Made by a program: the position numbers and the translations under genes | Assembly: GCA_017544285.1 (NCBI GenBank) | Contig: JAFYEL010000088.1 | Location: 1 to 37,840 of the forward strand | DNA from: Lachnospiraceae bacterium | GTDB taxonomy: Bacteria; Bacillota; Clostridia; Lachnospirales; Lachnospiraceae | Direction: 5' to 3' | Length of the DNA stretch: 37,840 nt | The notes under the pieces: model-generated | What the model saw: only the letters and a program-made list of their open reading frames with translations | What the model was told of the DNA's origin: nothing | Databases searched by the model: none | Shown: positions 25,049 through 31,177 of the stretch, one piece after another | Position numbering within the stretch: the first letter of the stretch is position 1 | Layout: each line of letters begins with the position of its first letter

Positions 25049-26032
25049 TTAGATTGCAAGTGCGCTTGCGAGTGCTGCCTTTGCTGCTGCAAGAGCTGCT
25101 GCGTAAGCTGCCTCTGCCTTAGCCTTTGCGGTAGCGTTTGCGCCGTCAGCTGCTACTGAAGCTGCCTGGCCGTAAGCTGCGTCTGCTGCTGCCTTAGCTG
25201 CGCCTGCAGCCTTGGTAGCTGCTGCCTGTGCTGCGAAGTAAGCGTTCTTTGCTGCCTGAACTGCCTGTGCATCACTGGGATCAGCCTTGTACATATCGTT
25301 CTTGGCATCAAGAGCTGCCTTCTCTGCTGCTGCTGCTGCGCTGCTTGCATCGCCGGCGATCTTAGCTGCCTTCTCTGCTGCCTTAGCTGCGTCCTTAGCT
25401 GCGTCTGCTGCAACCTTTGCTGCCTTCTTTGCTGCTGCGTCTGCTGCCTTAGCTGCATTATCAGCTGCCTTAAGTGCCTTCTCATACTCGGCAACCTTTG
25501 CCTTGTAAGCTGCCTCTGCCTGTGCTGCTGCCTTCTTTGCTGCGTCTGCTGCAAAAGCTGCCTCAGCGTCTGCCTTCTTCTGTGCTTCCTTAGCTGCGAT
25601 AGCCTCAGCCTCTGCCTTTGCATCTGCTGCTGCCTCTTCAGCCTCTGCCTTTGCCTTTGCTGCTGCCTCTGCTGCTGCGATCTCAGCCTTAAGCTTGTCA
25701 TCAGCTGCCTTAGCCTCAGCCTCAGCCTTTGCTATTCTTTCCTCCTCAGCAAGCTTAGCTGCTTCGATCTCAGCCTCAAGCTTTTCCTTAGCTTCCTTAG
25801 CTGCTACCTTTTCGGCCTCTTTCTTAGCTTTAGCGGCTGCCTTTGCCTCCTCAGCTTCCTTCTTAGCCTTTTCCTCGGCTTCCTTCTTTTCCTGCTCAGC
25901 CTTTATTTCAGCTTCGGTCTTTGTCTTTGCATATACAGGTACTACGCTGGTAACGGTTGTGCTGAGTACCATCATGCCTGTGGCGGCAGCGATGATAGCT
26001 CTGTTTAAACTGCTCTTGCTTGTAAGTCTCAT
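25049..26032 (-). CDS. Secreted alanine-rich helical protein
   Basis: A 327-residue product with a clear signal peptide (MRLTSKSS..., hydrophobic core, cleavage near VYA before KTK). The mature part is almost entirely Ala, Lys, Glu and Asp. The first half (~130 residues) is a charged Glu/Lys/Ala helix; the second half has more Ala, with heptad-like spacing such as AADAAKD and AAKAAEK. A single helix breaker, ADPSD, could form a hairpin of two long helices. No cell-wall sorting signal, membrane anchor or catalytic motif is seen. It resembles TolA-like linkers or alanine coiled coils in composition only; function unknown. ATG 26032 has AGGAGG upstream; an earlier TTG is disfavoured. It has its own promoter and terminator. 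Confidence 0.85.
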   Translation of the reverse strand: MRLTSKSSLNRAIIAAATGMMVLSTTVTSVVPVYAKTKTEAEIKAEQEKKEAEEKAKKEAEEAKAAAKAKKEAEKVAAKEAKEKLEAEIEAAKLAEEERIAKAEAEAKAADDKLKAEIAAAEAAAKAKAEAEEAAADAKAEAEAIAAKEAQKKADAEAAFAADAAKKAAAQAEAAYKAKVAEYEKALKAADNAAKAADAAAKKAAKVAADAAKDAAKAAEKAAKIAGDASSAAAAAEKAALDAKNDMYKADPSDAQAVQAAKNAYFAAQAAATKAAGAAKAAADAAYGQAASVAADGANATAKAKAEAAYAAALAAAKAALASALAI

Positions 26033-26089
26033 AATGACTCCTCCTAACAAAAAAATAAATTAAACAACGACAGTTGTTCATCAAACCAA

Positions 26090-26125: not shown

Positions 26126-27037
26126 TTACAGTTTTATGCCTGCGAGAAGAGACCCGAGGGAAGTACCTATGCTCTCGCTCTCGGGAAGCTTTACCTCTTC
26201 CTCCTCTATCTCGGTGGCCATAACATCCTCAAGAGCCTTCTTGGAAAGGGATATCTTGCCGTCCTTAACGGCGATGACCTTAACCTTGACCTTTTCGCCC
26301 TCCTTGAGGACGGCGCCGGGATGCTTGATCCTTGTGTTGCTGATCTGTGATACATGAAGGAGGCCCGAAAGCCCGTTGGAAAGTCTGACAAAGGCTCCGT
26401 ATGGCTGAAGGCTCTCGACTGTGCCCTCGGTCACAAGACCTACCTCCACGTTGGAAGCCAGCCTTGCCTCCTGCTCCCTTCTCTCCTCGAAAAGGATGTC
26501 CTTTGCACTCATCACCAGCTTCTTGTCATTCCTGTCTGCTGTGATGACTCTGACCTCGATGACCTTGCCCACGAATTTCTCAAGTTCTTCCTCTTCCACG
26601 TAGGAAAGAGCAAGCTTCGATGCGGGGATAAAGCCTCTTACGCCCTCAAGGTAAGCGACCACGCCGCCCTTAACTGCGGATGCCACCTTAACCTTTGCGT
26701 TGCGCTGGCTGCTCTTGTACTCCTCAAGGCGGTCCCAGGCAAGAACTGCGTTGGCTTCCTTCTTTGAAAGAAGGATCCTGCCCTTTCCGTCGTCCTCGCG
26801 GATCACCGTAGCGGAGATCTCGTCTCCCACCTTGACTTCGTCCATTGCAGTCACCGTGGGATCGTCGGAGTAATCCTGAGCCCTGATGACACCCTCGGCA
26901 AAGTAACGAAGGTCGATGACGATCTCTTCCTCGTTCACGTCGATGACGGTTCCGGTGAGGATGTCGCCTTCGTTGATCTTCCTCATGGACTGATCGATCT
27001 GGTCTTTGTAGTCAGCCATTGTTTCCTGTGTTTCCAA
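26126..27037 (-). CDS. S1-domain RNA-binding protein (ribosomal protein S1 homologue)
   Basis: A 303-residue protein with three S1 OB-fold repeats: about 20-90 (EGDILTGTVIDVNEEEIVIDL), 105-180 (GGVVAYLEGVRGFIPASKL), and 195-270 (VTEGTVESLQPYGAFVRLSNGLSGLLHVSQIS), the last being the most canonical RNA-binding copy. It is shorter than six-domain S1 and like the three- to four-domain S1/YpfD homologues of Firmicutes, which bind mRNA and ribosomes. The start is probably TTG 27037, since AGGAGGT lies at good spacing; ATG 27019 with AGGAAA is the alternative. A cloverleaf-like repeat element lies 48 bases upstream. Confidence 0.93.
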   Translation of the reverse strand: METQETMADYKDQIDQSMRKINEGDILTGTVIDVNEEEIVIDLRYFAEGVIRAQDYSDDPTVTAMDEVKVGDEISATVIREDDGKGRILLSKKEANAVLAWDRLEEYKSSQRNAKVKVASAVKGGVVAYLEGVRGFIPASKLALSYVEEEELEKFVGKVIEVRVITADRNDKKLVMSAKDILFEERREQEARLASNVEVGLVTEGTVESLQPYGAFVRLSNGLSGLLHVSQISNTRIKHPGAVLKEGEKVKVKVIAVKDGKISLSKKALEDVMATEIEEEEVKLPESESIGTSLGSLLAGIKL

Positions 27038-27084
27038 CTTTGTTACCTCCTGGAGATGTTTTATTGTTTTGGTGTGGGGTTTGT

Positions 27085-27207
27085 TGAGTGTAGGTCAATA
27101 TCGCTTTGCGATATTGGTAATCCTGCATCCGGGCCGCTCTGCAAGTAAACTTGCGAGGCGGTCCGTGTGCAGGATGCCAAACGGCTTTGCCGTTTGACCT
27201 ACACTCA
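27085..27207. repeat. Cloverleaf-like nested palindromic element
   Basis: A 123-bp element bounded by a perfect 14-bp inverted repeat (TGAGTGTAGGTCAA at 27085-27098, complement at 27194-27207). Inside are three further hairpins. Arm A (27099-27113) is TATCGC-TTT-GCGATA, extendable to 9 bp by borrowing CAA from the outer stem. Arm B (27120-27175) has an 8-bp ATCCTGCA/TGCAGGAT base, an 8-bp CGGGCCGC/GCGGTCCG stem with one G-T pair, and a GCAAG-TAAA-CTTGC tip. Arm C (27181-27193) is ACGGC-TTT-GCCGT, extendable to 8 bp. No U-tract follows on either strand, so it is not an intrinsic terminator. It looks like a small non-coding repeat of REP/MITE type or a structured leader; no second copy was seen in this window. 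Confidence 0.85.
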
Positions 27208-27285
27208 TATTGTCACGCAAAAATTAATCACCCAAACACATCCACACCCATAAGTTCTAAACCTTTAAATCATATTTCGGCACGA

Positions 27286-29937
27286 TCACGCAAGCTGCTT
27301 CGCCAAAACATCGGCAGCCCCTTCCACAACCTTGGGTATACCCGCAGGGTTCTTTCCTCCTGCCTGGGCCATGTTCGGCCTTCCGCCGCCGCCTCCGCCG
27401 ACGAGACCGGCCAGCTCCTTGATAAGGTTTCCTGCATGTGCTCCCTTATCCATGGCTCCCTGAGTGGCCATGACAACCAGGCATACCTTGCCGTCATTCT
27501 CGGATACAAGTACCACGACTCCGTCACCAAGCTTGTCCTTGATGGAATCGCCCATATCCCTGAGGCTGTTCATATCCAGATCCTTGAAATCTGCCGCCAG
27601 GAGCTTGACTCCCTTGACCTCAGTAACCTTATCCATGATCCCGGATGCGGCGTCGTTTGCGGCCGCGCTCTTAAGGGATCTGATCTCGGAGTTAAGTGTC
27701 TTTATCAGCTCGTACATGGAGCGGATCTCGTTCACCAGCTTATCCGGTGTGGTCCTTGCAACGGCCGCCGCCTCATGAACGGTCTTCTCCAGATCCTTAT
27801 AATACTCGGTTACATTATCTCCCGTAATGGCGGTGATCCTGCGGACTCCGGATGCTACGGATCCCTCGGATACGATCTTGAAGCTCCTTATGGCTCCCGT
27901 ATGTGCCACGTGGGTGCCTCCGCAGAGCTCCTTGGAGAAATCTCCCATGGATACCACTCTTACATTCTCGGCGTACTTCTCTCCGAAGAGTGCCATGGCT
28001 CCGGACTTCTTGGCCTCATCCAGAGACATTACCTTTGTCTCGACCGGCAGATCCTCTGCGATCTTTTCGTTTACTATATCCTCAACCTTTTTCAGTTCTT
28101 CCCCGTTCATTGCCTGGAAGTGTGAGAAGTCGAATCTGGTGCGCTCTGCATCCTGATAGGATCCGCTCTGCTCTACGTGACTTCCCAGCACATCTCTCAG
28201 TGCCTTCTGAAGCAGGTGGGTTGCGGAATGGTTGCGGCATACGGATGCGCGGTTCTTTTCATCTACGGAAAGTGTTGCCGCCGTATCCTTTCTGATCATG
28301 CCCTTTGAAACATATCCGAAGTGGCCGATCCTGTTTCCGGTAACCTTTTCGGTTGCGGTAACGGTGAACTCTCCGTCTGCGGTGGTGATCACGCCGATGT
28401 CACCGACCTGGCCGCCCATGGTGGCGTAGAAGGGAGTCTTTGCGCAGACTATGCAGCCCTTCTGTCCCTCGGAAATGGCATCGCTTATCTCGGTCTTCTC
28501 ATCATCGGAAACGGCGATGGCGCTGATCTTATCTTCAACGGTGAGCTTGTCATAGCCCACGAACTCGGAGGTAACGCTCTTGTCATAGTCATCCCAAACG
28601 GTGGCGTCGGCTCCCATGTAGTTGGTGGTCTTTCTTGCAGCCCTTGCCTTTTCCTTCTGTTCCTTCATGCAGGCCTTAAAGCCTTCCTCGTCAACGGTGA
28701 AGCCCTTCTCCTCCAGGATCTCTGCGGTGAGGTCGATAGGGAATCCGTAGGTATCATAGAGCTTGAAGGCATCGGCGCCGGAAAGCACGGTCTTGCCTTC
28801 CTTCTTAAGGCTCTCCTCGTAACCCGTCAGGATGGAAAGTCCGGTATCTATGGTCCTGTTGAACTGCTCCTCCTCCTTGGTGAGGTTGTTTATGATGAAA
28901 TCTCTCTTTTCGTCAAGCTCGGGATATCCGTCCTTTGAGCCCTCGATAACGGTCTCGGCAAGCTGTGCCAGGAAAAGTCCCTGAATGCCGAGCTTGCGGC
29001 CCTGTCTTGCGGCACGTCGGATGATACGGCGGAGCACATAGCCCCTGCCCTCGTTTGAAGGCATGATACCGTCGGATATCATGAAGGTTGCGGAACGCAT
29101 ATGGTCAGTGATGATACGGATGGACACATCGGTGTCGTAATCCTTTTTGTACTCGACTCCGGCTATGCGGCACACGTGTGAACGGAGCGCATAAACGGTG
29201 TCAACGTCAAAGATGGAATCCACATCCTGTACAACGGAGGCCAGTCTCTCAAGGCCCATTCCCGTATCGATGTTCTTCTGGTCAAGCTCCGAGTAGTTGC
29301 CCTTGCCGTCGTTGTCAAACTGGGTGAAGACGTTGTTCCAGATCTCCATGTAACGGTCGCAGTCACAGCCCACGGTACAGCCTTCCTTGCCGCAGCCGTA
29401 TTTTTCTCCTCTGTCATAGTAGATCTCGGAGCAGGGGCCGCAGGGACCTGAGCCGTGCTCCCAGAAGTTATCCTCCTTGCCGAAACGGAAGATCCTCTCG
29501 GGTGCAATGCCTATCTCTTTGTTCCAGATCTCGAAGGCTTCGTCATCGTCCTGATAAACCGAAGGATAAAGTCTCTCGGGATCCAGTCCTACTCTCTCGG
29601 TCAAAAACTCCCACGACCAATGGATGGCCTCTTTTTTGAAATAATCCCCGAAGGAGAAGTTGCCCAGCATCTCAAAGAAGGTGCCGTGACGGGCTGTCTT
29701 TCCGACGTTTTCAAGGTCTCCTGTCCTTATACACTTCTGGCAGGTGGTAACCCTGTGTCTGGGGGGCTCTTCCTGGCCCGTAAAATAGGGCTTCAGTGGT
29801 GCCATTCCCGAATTGATGAGCAGGAGTGAGTTGTCATTGTGGGGCACAAGGGAAAATGACTTGAGCTTTAAATGCCCCTTCTCCTCCATGAAGTCCAGGA
29901 ACATCTTTCTGAGTTCGTTTACACCGTAGTTTTGCAT
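27286..29937 (-). CDS. alaS: Alanyl-tRNA synthetase
   Basis: Charges tRNA-Ala. The 883-residue product has the class II catalytic core, with the N-terminal INSGMAPLKPYFTG and GTFFEMLGNFSFGDYFK segments. The editing domain follows, with the zinc-site HSATH and CGGTHVAHTG motifs, and then the C-terminal C-Ala domain with a GGGGGGRPNMAQAGG glycine-rich segment. The start chosen is ATG 29937 (MQNYGVNELR) with AGGAAA upstream; it lies just after the antiporter stop, whereas an in-frame ATG 33 bases earlier would overlap it. Last gene of the his-antiporter-alaS run. No T-box or strong terminator was found around it. Confidence 0.97.
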   Translation of the reverse strand: MQNYGVNELRKMFLDFMEEKGHLKLKSFSLVPHNDNSLLLINSGMAPLKPYFTGQEEPPRHRVTTCQKCIRTGDLENVGKTARHGTFFEMLGNFSFGDYFKKEAIHWSWEFLTERVGLDPERLYPSVYQDDDEAFEIWNKEIGIAPERIFRFGKEDNFWEHGSGPCGPCSEIYYDRGEKYGCGKEGCTVGCDCDRYMEIWNNVFTQFDNDGKGNYSELDQKNIDTGMGLERLASVVQDVDSIFDVDTVYALRSHVCRIAGVEYKKDYDTDVSIRIITDHMRSATFMISDGIMPSNEGRGYVLRRIIRRAARQGRKLGIQGLFLAQLAETVIEGSKDGYPELDEKRDFIINNLTKEEEQFNRTIDTGLSILTGYEESLKKEGKTVLSGADAFKLYDTYGFPIDLTAEILEEKGFTVDEEGFKACMKEQKEKARAARKTTNYMGADATVWDDYDKSVTSEFVGYDKLTVEDKISAIAVSDDEKTEISDAISEGQKGCIVCAKTPFYATMGGQVGDIGVITTADGEFTVTATEKVTGNRIGHFGYVSKGMIRKDTAATLSVDEKNRASVCRNHSATHLLQKALRDVLGSHVEQSGSYQDAERTRFDFSHFQAMNGEELKKVEDIVNEKIAEDLPVETKVMSLDEAKKSGAMALFGEKYAENVRVVSMGDFSKELCGGTHVAHTGAIRSFKIVSEGSVASGVRRITAITGDNVTEYYKDLEKTVHEAAAVARTTPDKLVNEIRSMYELIKTLNSEIRSLKSAAANDAASGIMDKVTEVKGVKLLAADFKDLDMNSLRDMGDSIKDKLGDGVVVLVSENDGKVCLVVMATQGAMDKGAHAGNLIKELAGLVGGGGGGRPNMAQAGGKNPAGIPKVVEGAADVLAKQLA

Positions 29938-29953
29938 TGGGATTTCCTTTCTG

Positions 29954-31177
29954 TCAATAACTGTCGACAAAGTCTTCTTCTCCGCCTCCGGCGGTTATCT
30001 CCTGAGGCGTAGGTTCGCCCGCGTAAAGCGCCTTAAGGGCCACCGGGGTCACCAGGGACGAAATGATGATGAGCATTATGACCGGGGTGAAATAAGTGGC
30101 GGACATAAGTCCCATGGCCAGACCTTTTTGTGAAACGATCAGGGCCACCTCACCGCGGGTCATCATACCGACCCCCACCTTAAGACAGTCTTTATTTTTA
30201 TATCCGAAGAGCTTGGCCGCAAGGGAACAGCCTATGATCTTTGTGACCAGGGCCACGATCACAAAGCCGATACAGAAGGCCATCAGCTCTTTGTTCATGC
30301 CGGTTATCTTTGTCTTTATACCTATGGAGGCAAAGAATACCGGACCGAAGAACATGTAAGATGATATGTCCATCTTTTCCGCGATGTATTCGGAGTCGTT
30401 TATGGAGCAGAGGATAACCCCCGCCACAAAGGCTCCTGTTATGTCCGCTATGCCGAAATACCGCTCCGCCACATAGGACAGGGCCAGACACAGGGCCAGG
30501 GAAAAAATGGGGATACGCCTGGTGTGGGGATACCGGGTGTCCATCCACTTGAACACATGGTAGAGTATGATGCCCACTCCAACGGCGAACACAAAGAACA
30601 GTACCGTGTTCATCACCACCGCGTCGGGCTCCACGGAATCCGATACGAAACCGATGACAAAGGTCAGGACTATGATGCCTACGATGTCGTCGATTATGGC
30701 CGCGGAAAGGATCAGGGTTCCCACATCTCCTGAGAGATGCCCAAGTTCCTTTAACACCTGGACGGTTATGGACACCGAGGTGGCGGTCATGATACAGCCC
30801 ATGAAAATGGCCTTGTAAAACTCCATGCTTCCCGGTTCGGCAAAGCCGTAAAAGGAGCTGTACAGCAGGAAACCGCCGTAAAGAGGCACTGCCACACCCA
30901 CACAGGCTACCAGCAGCGCCCTCGGTCCCGTCTTTATCAGTTTTTTCAGATTGGTTCCCAGTCCCGCCGAGAACATCAGGAGTATGACTCCTATCTCAGC
31001 CATCTGGGAAATGAATTCGGTCTGCTGTACGAACCCGAAAAGACAGGGTCCGACAATGATACCGGCTATGATCTCGCCGGCCACCTGGGGGATCCTCAGT
31101 TTCTTTGCCACCAGGCCGAAAAGCTTCGCGCTTATAACAATTATCGCAAGTTCTCTAAGTATACTGTAGCTTTCCAT
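29954..31177 (-). CDS. Cation:proton antiporter (CPA2/Kef type)
   Basis: A 407-residue membrane protein with about 12 hydrophobic segments. Family marks include KKLRIPQVAGEIIAGIIVGP near the start, the SAAIIDDIVGIIVL double-aspartate ion site in the middle, and GMMTRGEVALIVSQKG near the C-terminus. It lacks the C-terminal TrkA-N domain of full Kef channels and ends in a short acidic tail. Likely exchanges Na+ or K+ for H+ at the cytoplasmic membrane. It is 15 bases after the hisIE fusion and 16 bases before alaS. Confidence 0.93.
   Translation of the reverse strand: MESYSILRELAIIVISAKLFGLVAKKLRIPQVAGEIIAGIIVGPCLFGFVQQTEFISQMAEIGVILLMFSAGLGTNLKKLIKTGPRALLVACVGVAVPLYGGFLLYSSFYGFAEPGSMEFYKAIFMGCIMTATSVSITVQVLKELGHLSGDVGTLILSAAIIDDIVGIIVLTFVIGFVSDSVEPDAVVMNTVLFFVFAVGVGIILYHVFKWMDTRYPHTRRIPIFSLALCLALSYVAERYFGIADITGAFVAGVILCSINDSEYIAEKMDISSYMFFGPVFFASIGIKTKITGMNKELMAFCIGFVIVALVTKIIGCSLAAKLFGYKNKDCLKVGVGMMTRGEVALIVSQKGLAMGLMSATYFTPVIMLIIISSLVTPVALKALYAGEPTPQEITAGGGEEDFVDSY

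Follow-up and report, generated by a model that had tools for sequence, protein, structure and literature searches.

A probable MITE-like DNA repeat with a cloverleaf core between alaS and an S1-domain gene in Lachnospiraceae, its arms apparently kept paired at the level of DNA

The 37,840-nucleotide stretch of Lachnospiraceae DNA analysed here (the window) carries, between an alanyl-tRNA synthetase gene and a gene for an S1 RNA-binding-domain protein, a cloverleaf element that appears to belong to a family of small DNA repeats that look mobile and are dispersed in Lachnospiraceae genomes. We think this element likely to be a MITE-like mobile DNA repeat that encodes nothing and whose cloverleaf core is kept paired by a process acting on DNA, not by an RNA function. 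It is not a leader of the S1 gene, not a REP element mobilised by a RAYT transposase, and not a terminator.

A first-pass annotation had described a self-complementary stretch of 123 bp in which a perfect 14-bp outer repeat encloses three inner hairpins, and coordinates, repeat and fold were all confirmed (Table 1). The minimum free energy of the 123-nt element is -81.0 kcal/mol on the + strand (z -12.7) and -73.0 kcal/mol on the - strand, against means of -36.1 and -31.6 for dinucleotide shuffles, none of which (0 of 200 per strand) reached the energy of the element, and a scan of the + strand of the window in 40-nt steps found no more stable stretch of 123 nt. A perfect 14-mer inverted repeat within 140 nt occurred in three of 100 first-order Markov simulations of the window; the outer arm on its own is modestly unusual, and chance comes nowhere near explaining the fold as a whole. 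The loop of each side hairpin is GC-TTT-GC, and a CAA belongs both to these hairpins and to the outer stem, so that alternative pairings exist, in agreement with the competing folds proposed earlier. The same annotation had excluded a terminator, and between 26900 and 27500 there are indeed no terminator-like tails or sites, nor any sigma-70-like sites. At gathering score Rfam has no family anywhere in the window, and the single sub-threshold match near the element (27251-27269, E 2.4) lies outside it. Few letters are as well conserved between genomes as those of the middle-arm tip, AAGC-NN-GCTT, both in the members of alignment A6 and in the weak candidates; the window copy has a variant of it.

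Table 1. Coordinates of the cloverleaf element, its parts and the adjoining genes in the window.
Feature	Position	Strand	Basis
Whole cloverleaf element	27085..27207	+ (strand of family models R1/R2)	Model R1, built without the window copy: match 27084-27208, 58.5 bits, E 1.2e-14; fold
Outer stem, left arm TGAGTGTAGGTCAA	27085..27098	+	Perfect 14-bp inverted repeat
Outer stem, right arm TTGACCTACACTCA	27194..27207	+	Perfect 14-bp inverted repeat
Left hairpin, longest form CAATATCGC-TTT-GCGATATTG; CAA common with outer stem	27096..27116	+	Sequence and fold
Long middle arm	27115..27179	+	Fold; alignment A6
Middle-arm tip TGCAAG-TAAA-CTTGCG, variant of the usual family tip (GCAAGC-NN-GCTTGC-like)	27140-27155	+	Fold; alignment A6
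Right hairpin, longest form CAAACGGC-TTT-GCCGTTTG	27178..27196	+	Fold; aligns with the AAGCAGC-TTT-GCTGCTT arm of the other five own-genome copies
S1 RNA-binding-domain protein gene, neighbour	26126..27037	-	Pfam S1 5.9e-37
Alanyl-tRNA synthetase gene alaS, neighbour	27286..29970	-	Pfam tRNA-synt_2c 1.9e-200

The genome-wide copy search that the first-pass annotation had proposed gave opposite answers by two methods. BLAST with the element meets only itself in its own genome (2.33 Mb, 84% complete), and the lack of any other copy, which the annotation had held would count against its reading, is in this case a failure of sequence search and not a fact about the genome. The same search returned nothing from 60 relatives or from phages, and one weak 35-nt match (E 0.3) from plasmids. 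Covariance models, by contrast, find six copies. A scan for inverted repeats with a stable fold, covering the window and 20 unselected stretches of its genome (247,847 bases), ranked the element first of 75 candidates and placed next after it two other own-genome cloverleafs of the same architecture. Model R1, built from those two cloverleafs only, with the window copy left out, recovers the window element (Table 1) and three further own-genome copies, six in total. A second model, R2, which includes the window copy, was run over 63 own-genome sources (762,547 of 2,330,304 bases), two of them chosen for already containing copies, and returned the same six and nothing else. In most of the own-genome copies the letters of the outer stem differ while complementarity is kept, and the loop of the right hairpin reads TAT instead of TTT in one of the other five in the alignment.

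The family core is about 125 bp long and has four base-paired arms, namely an outer stem, a left hairpin, a long middle arm and a right hairpin. R1 matches at least eight of 397 genomes of the window's family, its own included (seven others), a count that is a lower bound, as are all R1 genome-search counts, because the first genome-wide pass missed the window copy; R2 matches eight of 391 genomes of the class, again with its own and seven others, most of them weakly, and the E-values of these genome matches are rough. The three other genomes of the genus gave no match to R1. Best scores are strong (68-79 bits) in G333, G266, G202, G082 and G233 and weak (28-44 bits) in G283, G206, G134, G052, G675, G691, G156 and G418; those of the weak candidates that were folded give full or partial cloverleafs, and in most of these the middle tip is GCAAGC-like. 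G182, L176 (14.5 bits) and L077 (a 36-nt partial match) are doubtful members. Among 28 contig stretches with the pattern GGTCAAAAGT...ACTTTTGACC, 18 are members at 107 bits or more, all in four Lachnospiraceae metagenome-assembled genomes (MAGs; eight in RGIG2561, eight in RUG12461, one each in RUI362 and UBA3814); L176, also from the Lachnospiraceae, is among the 28 but not clearly a member, and none of the nine stretches from outside that family is a member. G333 and RUG12461 hold the same loci, with 100% matches at the same offsets. A negative control of 52 other loci (221,525 bases) gave no matches at E<=1, and viral contigs gave none to a 20-base end pattern. In one copy (L182:4915-5041) the outer stem runs 17 complementary bases further, in letters unlike the ends of its sister copies.

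The position of the element upstream of the S1 gene had suggested a structured leader through which that RNA-binding protein would regulate its own synthesis. This autoregulation was rejected and is scarcely tenable, for five of the six own-genome copies lie elsewhere, and in G002, the congener with the nearest S1, the alaS-S1 spacer is 34 bp long and free of the element that is present in the window's genome (G000), a single comparison between species whose S1 proteins are 79% identical. The S1 locus of G001, from the same genus, holds no family member by R2, and no close S1 was found in G003. In other genomes, 29 loci with S1 homologues, paralogues among them, gave no match to R2, and the S1 neighbourhood of the element therefore looks coincidental. 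Rather than controlling the adjoining S1 gene, the element most likely sits beside it as a passenger. The neighbourhood offers some observations of its own. Positions 25049-26050 (-) encode a 333-aa low-complexity protein rich in Ala, Lys and Glu, with a hydrophobic N-terminal stretch and no Pfam match at 1e-5. G001 carries a different repeat (L036 and L038-L045), a short leader with a hairpin, some 55 nt long (GTGTGAAAAAAGTGCTATGCACTTTTT... then GAGGTA-ATATG), whose end coincides with what looks like the start codon in several different genes and which has an extra hairpin module in three copies (L036, L038 and L039), one of them before S1; the repeat before S1 has no match to R2, and a TwoAYGGAY RNA (90.2 bits) lies away from it in the same locus (L036:203-367).

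The mobile character of the family is best seen in G202, where terminal repeats of 19 bp, TTTGAGTTTCCCCATTTTT, bound a 196-bp unit that contains the cloverleaf. With up to three mismatches this end pattern occurs at 126 places, against three for a reversed control. Among 21 bounded elements at the places listed, the flanks are exact duplicates over 8 bp in seven, over 9 bp in three and over 10 bp in four, and mean 8-bp flank identity is 0.595 against 0.308 when shuffled. Palindromes of 61-63 bp that consist of the ends only (L102, L112 and L119) have the same terminal repeats without the cloverleaf in those that were read; G266:C51:1263-1321 and C13:9979-10022 may, by end spacing only, be further such palindromes (range 44-63 bp). 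G202 also has an insertion sequence with 14-bp ends, CTTGAGTTTCCGCA, that differ from the MITE end at two of 13 positions on each side, a 10-bp duplication with one mismatch recognised by eye, and a 417-aa transposase that matches DDE_Tnp_1 at 53.4 bits, above the Pfam cut-off; IS4-type NCBIfam models match this transposase below their cut-offs, and a structure-database search with it returned nothing. A fragment of a related transposase lies beside an exact copy of the MITE end. No relative of the fragment was found in G000, G333, G266, G082 or G233, nor of the intact transposase in the sampled third of G000.

The ends of the family differ from genome to genome, and elements whose ends are quite unlike one another (G202, G266 and G233) all keep the cloverleaf. 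G266 and the named-MAG relatives have ends other than those of G202, about GATGTTGAGGTC. The end GATGTTGAGGTCAAAAG is enriched in G333 (23 against 8 in the control) and G266 (60 against 6), and has eight matches against two in the window's own genome, none of them at any of the six copies. No insertion sequence with GATGTTGAGG ends was seen by eye among the matches listed, and no parent insertion sequence with matching terminal repeats was seen for G000, G333 or G266. An 8-bp target duplication accompanies two of 17 copies of the four named MAGs; in the own genome none was found for five of the six copies and none is clear in any of the six, the window copy having only a 6-bp repeat that lies 17 bp off the boundary on one side. 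Putative mobility in the window's own lineage rests on the dispersal of the copies and on the element-free spacer in G002. For the family, the dispersed copies and their relatives together with the ends, duplications and insertion sequence of G202 support the MITE-type mobile repeat that had been one of the identities suggested at first. Another of those identities, a REP/BIME-type repeat mobilised by a RAYT (Y1 HUH) transposase, would account for intergenic palindromes, many of them just past stop codons, and is nevertheless very improbable and was rejected: PF01797 has no match in the own genome (84% complete), although the control search has matches in five of 14 genomes, so that the REP-associated transposase that the annotation had proposed to look for was not found there, and both size and anatomy are wrong, with a cloverleaf of 123-132 bp against the 20-40 bp given for REP sequences in PMC3733652.

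Pairing within the cloverleaf is kept while the letters change. RNAalifold predicts 41 pairs from 21 copies of five genomes, 38 of them with two-sided change. On a structure of 48 pairs, the analysis of relatives that had been suggested as a check shows two-sided changes at 44 of the 48 in 21 copies; there are 213 two-sided cells against 64.8 in shuffles (none of 500 shuffles reaches this number), and 92.3% of cells are paired against 70.8 when shuffled and 33-45% when slid. These covariation controls are generous, given that the same sequences partly supplied the structure and that the copies are related to one another; the recovery of the window copy by R1 does not depend on them. The pairs of the middle-arm tip are near-invariant.

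Covariation of this kind is usually taken as evidence of RNA structure, and it could be read as the mark of a structured RNA, free-standing or cis-acting, that is conserved as RNA, a reading to which one might add that 16 of 35 copies lie 28 bp or less from the stop codon of a neighbour by simple mechanical ORF calling. We regard it as improbable. By the same ORF calling, the element occurs in both orientations relative to genes, and the 31 copies with both neighbours comprise 19 in tandem, eight divergent and four convergent contexts. Rfam, silent on the window, also matches no element in the 18 loci searched that contain members or candidates. A selected RNA stem is expected to tolerate G.U and not A.C. 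Across 37 copies the isolated stem mismatches are 13 G.T, 12 A.C and seven others, beside 1904 Watson-Crick pairs, so that A.C is as common as G.T, whereas 17 distinct tRNAs from the same fetched loci have 24 G.T, no A.C and 338 Watson-Crick pairs over all stem positions and, by the isolated-mismatch rule, nine G.T and no A.C (Fisher p 0.013 on that rule, with copies of one genome not independent). Counted more crudely on alignment A6, G.T outnumbered A.C by 37 to 19; in that alignment the seven rows from G082 and G202 have their left hairpin out of register, which added errors to the count.

A pair of orthologous copies in RGIG2561 (L179) and RUG12461 (L196) gives a closer view of how arms are rewritten. 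Their loci are 84% identical at the nucleotide level over 1073 bp, with the element between two flagellar basal-body rod-type genes. The two elements differ at 12 of 129 sites, and 10 of the 12 differences are base-pairing partners, a number that none of 20,000 random placements reached, while the 24-nt middle-arm tip has five mismatches in direct comparison and one if inverted. The simplest account of this pattern would be the flipping of a hairpin or a switch of template, and gene conversion by another copy may account for it as well. PMC8794818 puts forward template switching during the replication of DNA as a source of compensatory multi-base changes. In a scan of 38 copies for inversions, the only candidate besides this clear one was weak. 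Fifteen young G202 copies, among those listed and with the misoriented row L113 left out, have 49 one-sided and four two-sided stem differences and thus decay like neutral passengers, correction being invisible at that time scale; this free decay, with 15 G.T and 13 A.C, also speaks against a structured RNA. The strand-symmetric stem mismatches, the paired differences at the orthologous site and the inverted tip together suggest that the pairing of the cloverleaf is apparently kept at the DNA rather than the RNA level, and of the identities first suggested the cruciform-type one is, by mismatch symmetry, tRNA contrast and orthologous pair, favoured over RNA.

A DNA-level cause need not be templated correction. 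The arms may instead stay paired through selection: the DNA cloverleaf, extruded or in single-stranded form, would be recognised by a protein such as a transposase or a structure-specific nuclease or recombinase of the host, and a copy whose arms no longer pair would fail to spread. Symmetric G.T and A.C counts fit any DNA-level cause, the retention of the cloverleaf despite quite different ends and the near-invariant tip pairs agree with selection, and the one-sided decay of young G202 copies may mean that pairing is filtered among the copies that spread. Set against this are the paired differences of L179 and L196, which arose at one orthologous site where transposition need not have intervened, and their inverted tip, which points to a mutational process (or to the gene conversion that would also do). 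Selection thus strikes us as plausible, though on balance we lean against it, and it competes with one step only of the explanation that we prefer, the MITE-like repeat maintained by a DNA-level process. In that explanation, copies in the window's genome would have spread in trans by means of a transposase, and their arms would stay complementary through template switching or through hairpin or cruciform flipping between arms, perhaps also with selection for folded DNA during mobilisation. At alaS-S1 the element would probably be a passenger, and any transcript that reads through it would gain a very stable hairpin. Several observations weigh against this explanation: the missing ends and target duplications at the own-genome copies, the lack of relatives of the G202 transposases in the genomes searched, the one-sided decay of young G202 copies, the scarcity of tip inversions, the G.T excess in the A6 count, and the fold of the window copy, which is better by 8 kcal/mol on the + than on the - strand.

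More tentatively, and as a proposal that we consider rather unlikely as a whole, the family may represent a class of mobile DNA conserved in shape, a DNA four-way cloverleaf, and not in sequence, in which the flipping of cruciforms or a switch of template would rewrite the arms, the core would be joined to unrelated terminal repeats, and the folded DNA would be the substrate of mobilisation. Such DNA would look exactly like structured RNA in standard covariation tests. The family itself would give the Lachnospiraceae a dispersed repeat that plain sequence search misses and would be a clear case in which covariation is no sign of RNA, so that G.T/A.C symmetry and arm inversion would be simple extra tests for the discovery of structured RNA. 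If DNA shape drives mobility, it would be a testable new mode for miniature elements.

No published description of a cloverleaf family of this kind was found in searches of open-licence PMC articles, and the nearest relatives among known systems each share some of its traits. Prokaryotic MITEs such as QMITE2 of Coxiella burnetii, as outlined in the relevant part of PMC10969869, are likewise short, non-coding and intergenic with a stable fold, and the G202 elements also resemble them in their terminal inverted repeats, direct repeats of 8-10 bp, length of about 196 bp and insertion sequence with similar ends. Unlike the MITEs of that account, the family has a four-arm cloverleaf core, which two-sided changes preserve from genus to genus and which occurs with different ends, and no clear target duplication or parent insertion sequence was found in the window's genome. 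Insertion sequences of the IS4 family (DDE_Tnp_1) are matched by that of G202 in its 14-bp inverted ends close to the MITE ends, its duplication of about 10 bp and its DDE transposase, whereas the cloverleaf elements encode nothing and the link is seen in one genome only. With REP/BIME sequences, the GTAG/CGTC palindromes treated in the part of PMC3733652 considered here, the family shares intergenic palindromes and possible DNA cruciforms, but it is much longer, forms a cloverleaf, lacks a GTAG/CGTC tag common to the copies and has no RAYT that was found. Hairpins maintained by template switching, as presented in the pertinent part of PMC8794818, show the same multi-base compensatory changes; that work concerns RNA genes, whereas the cloverleaf is a mobile-looking DNA repeat without RNA polarity.
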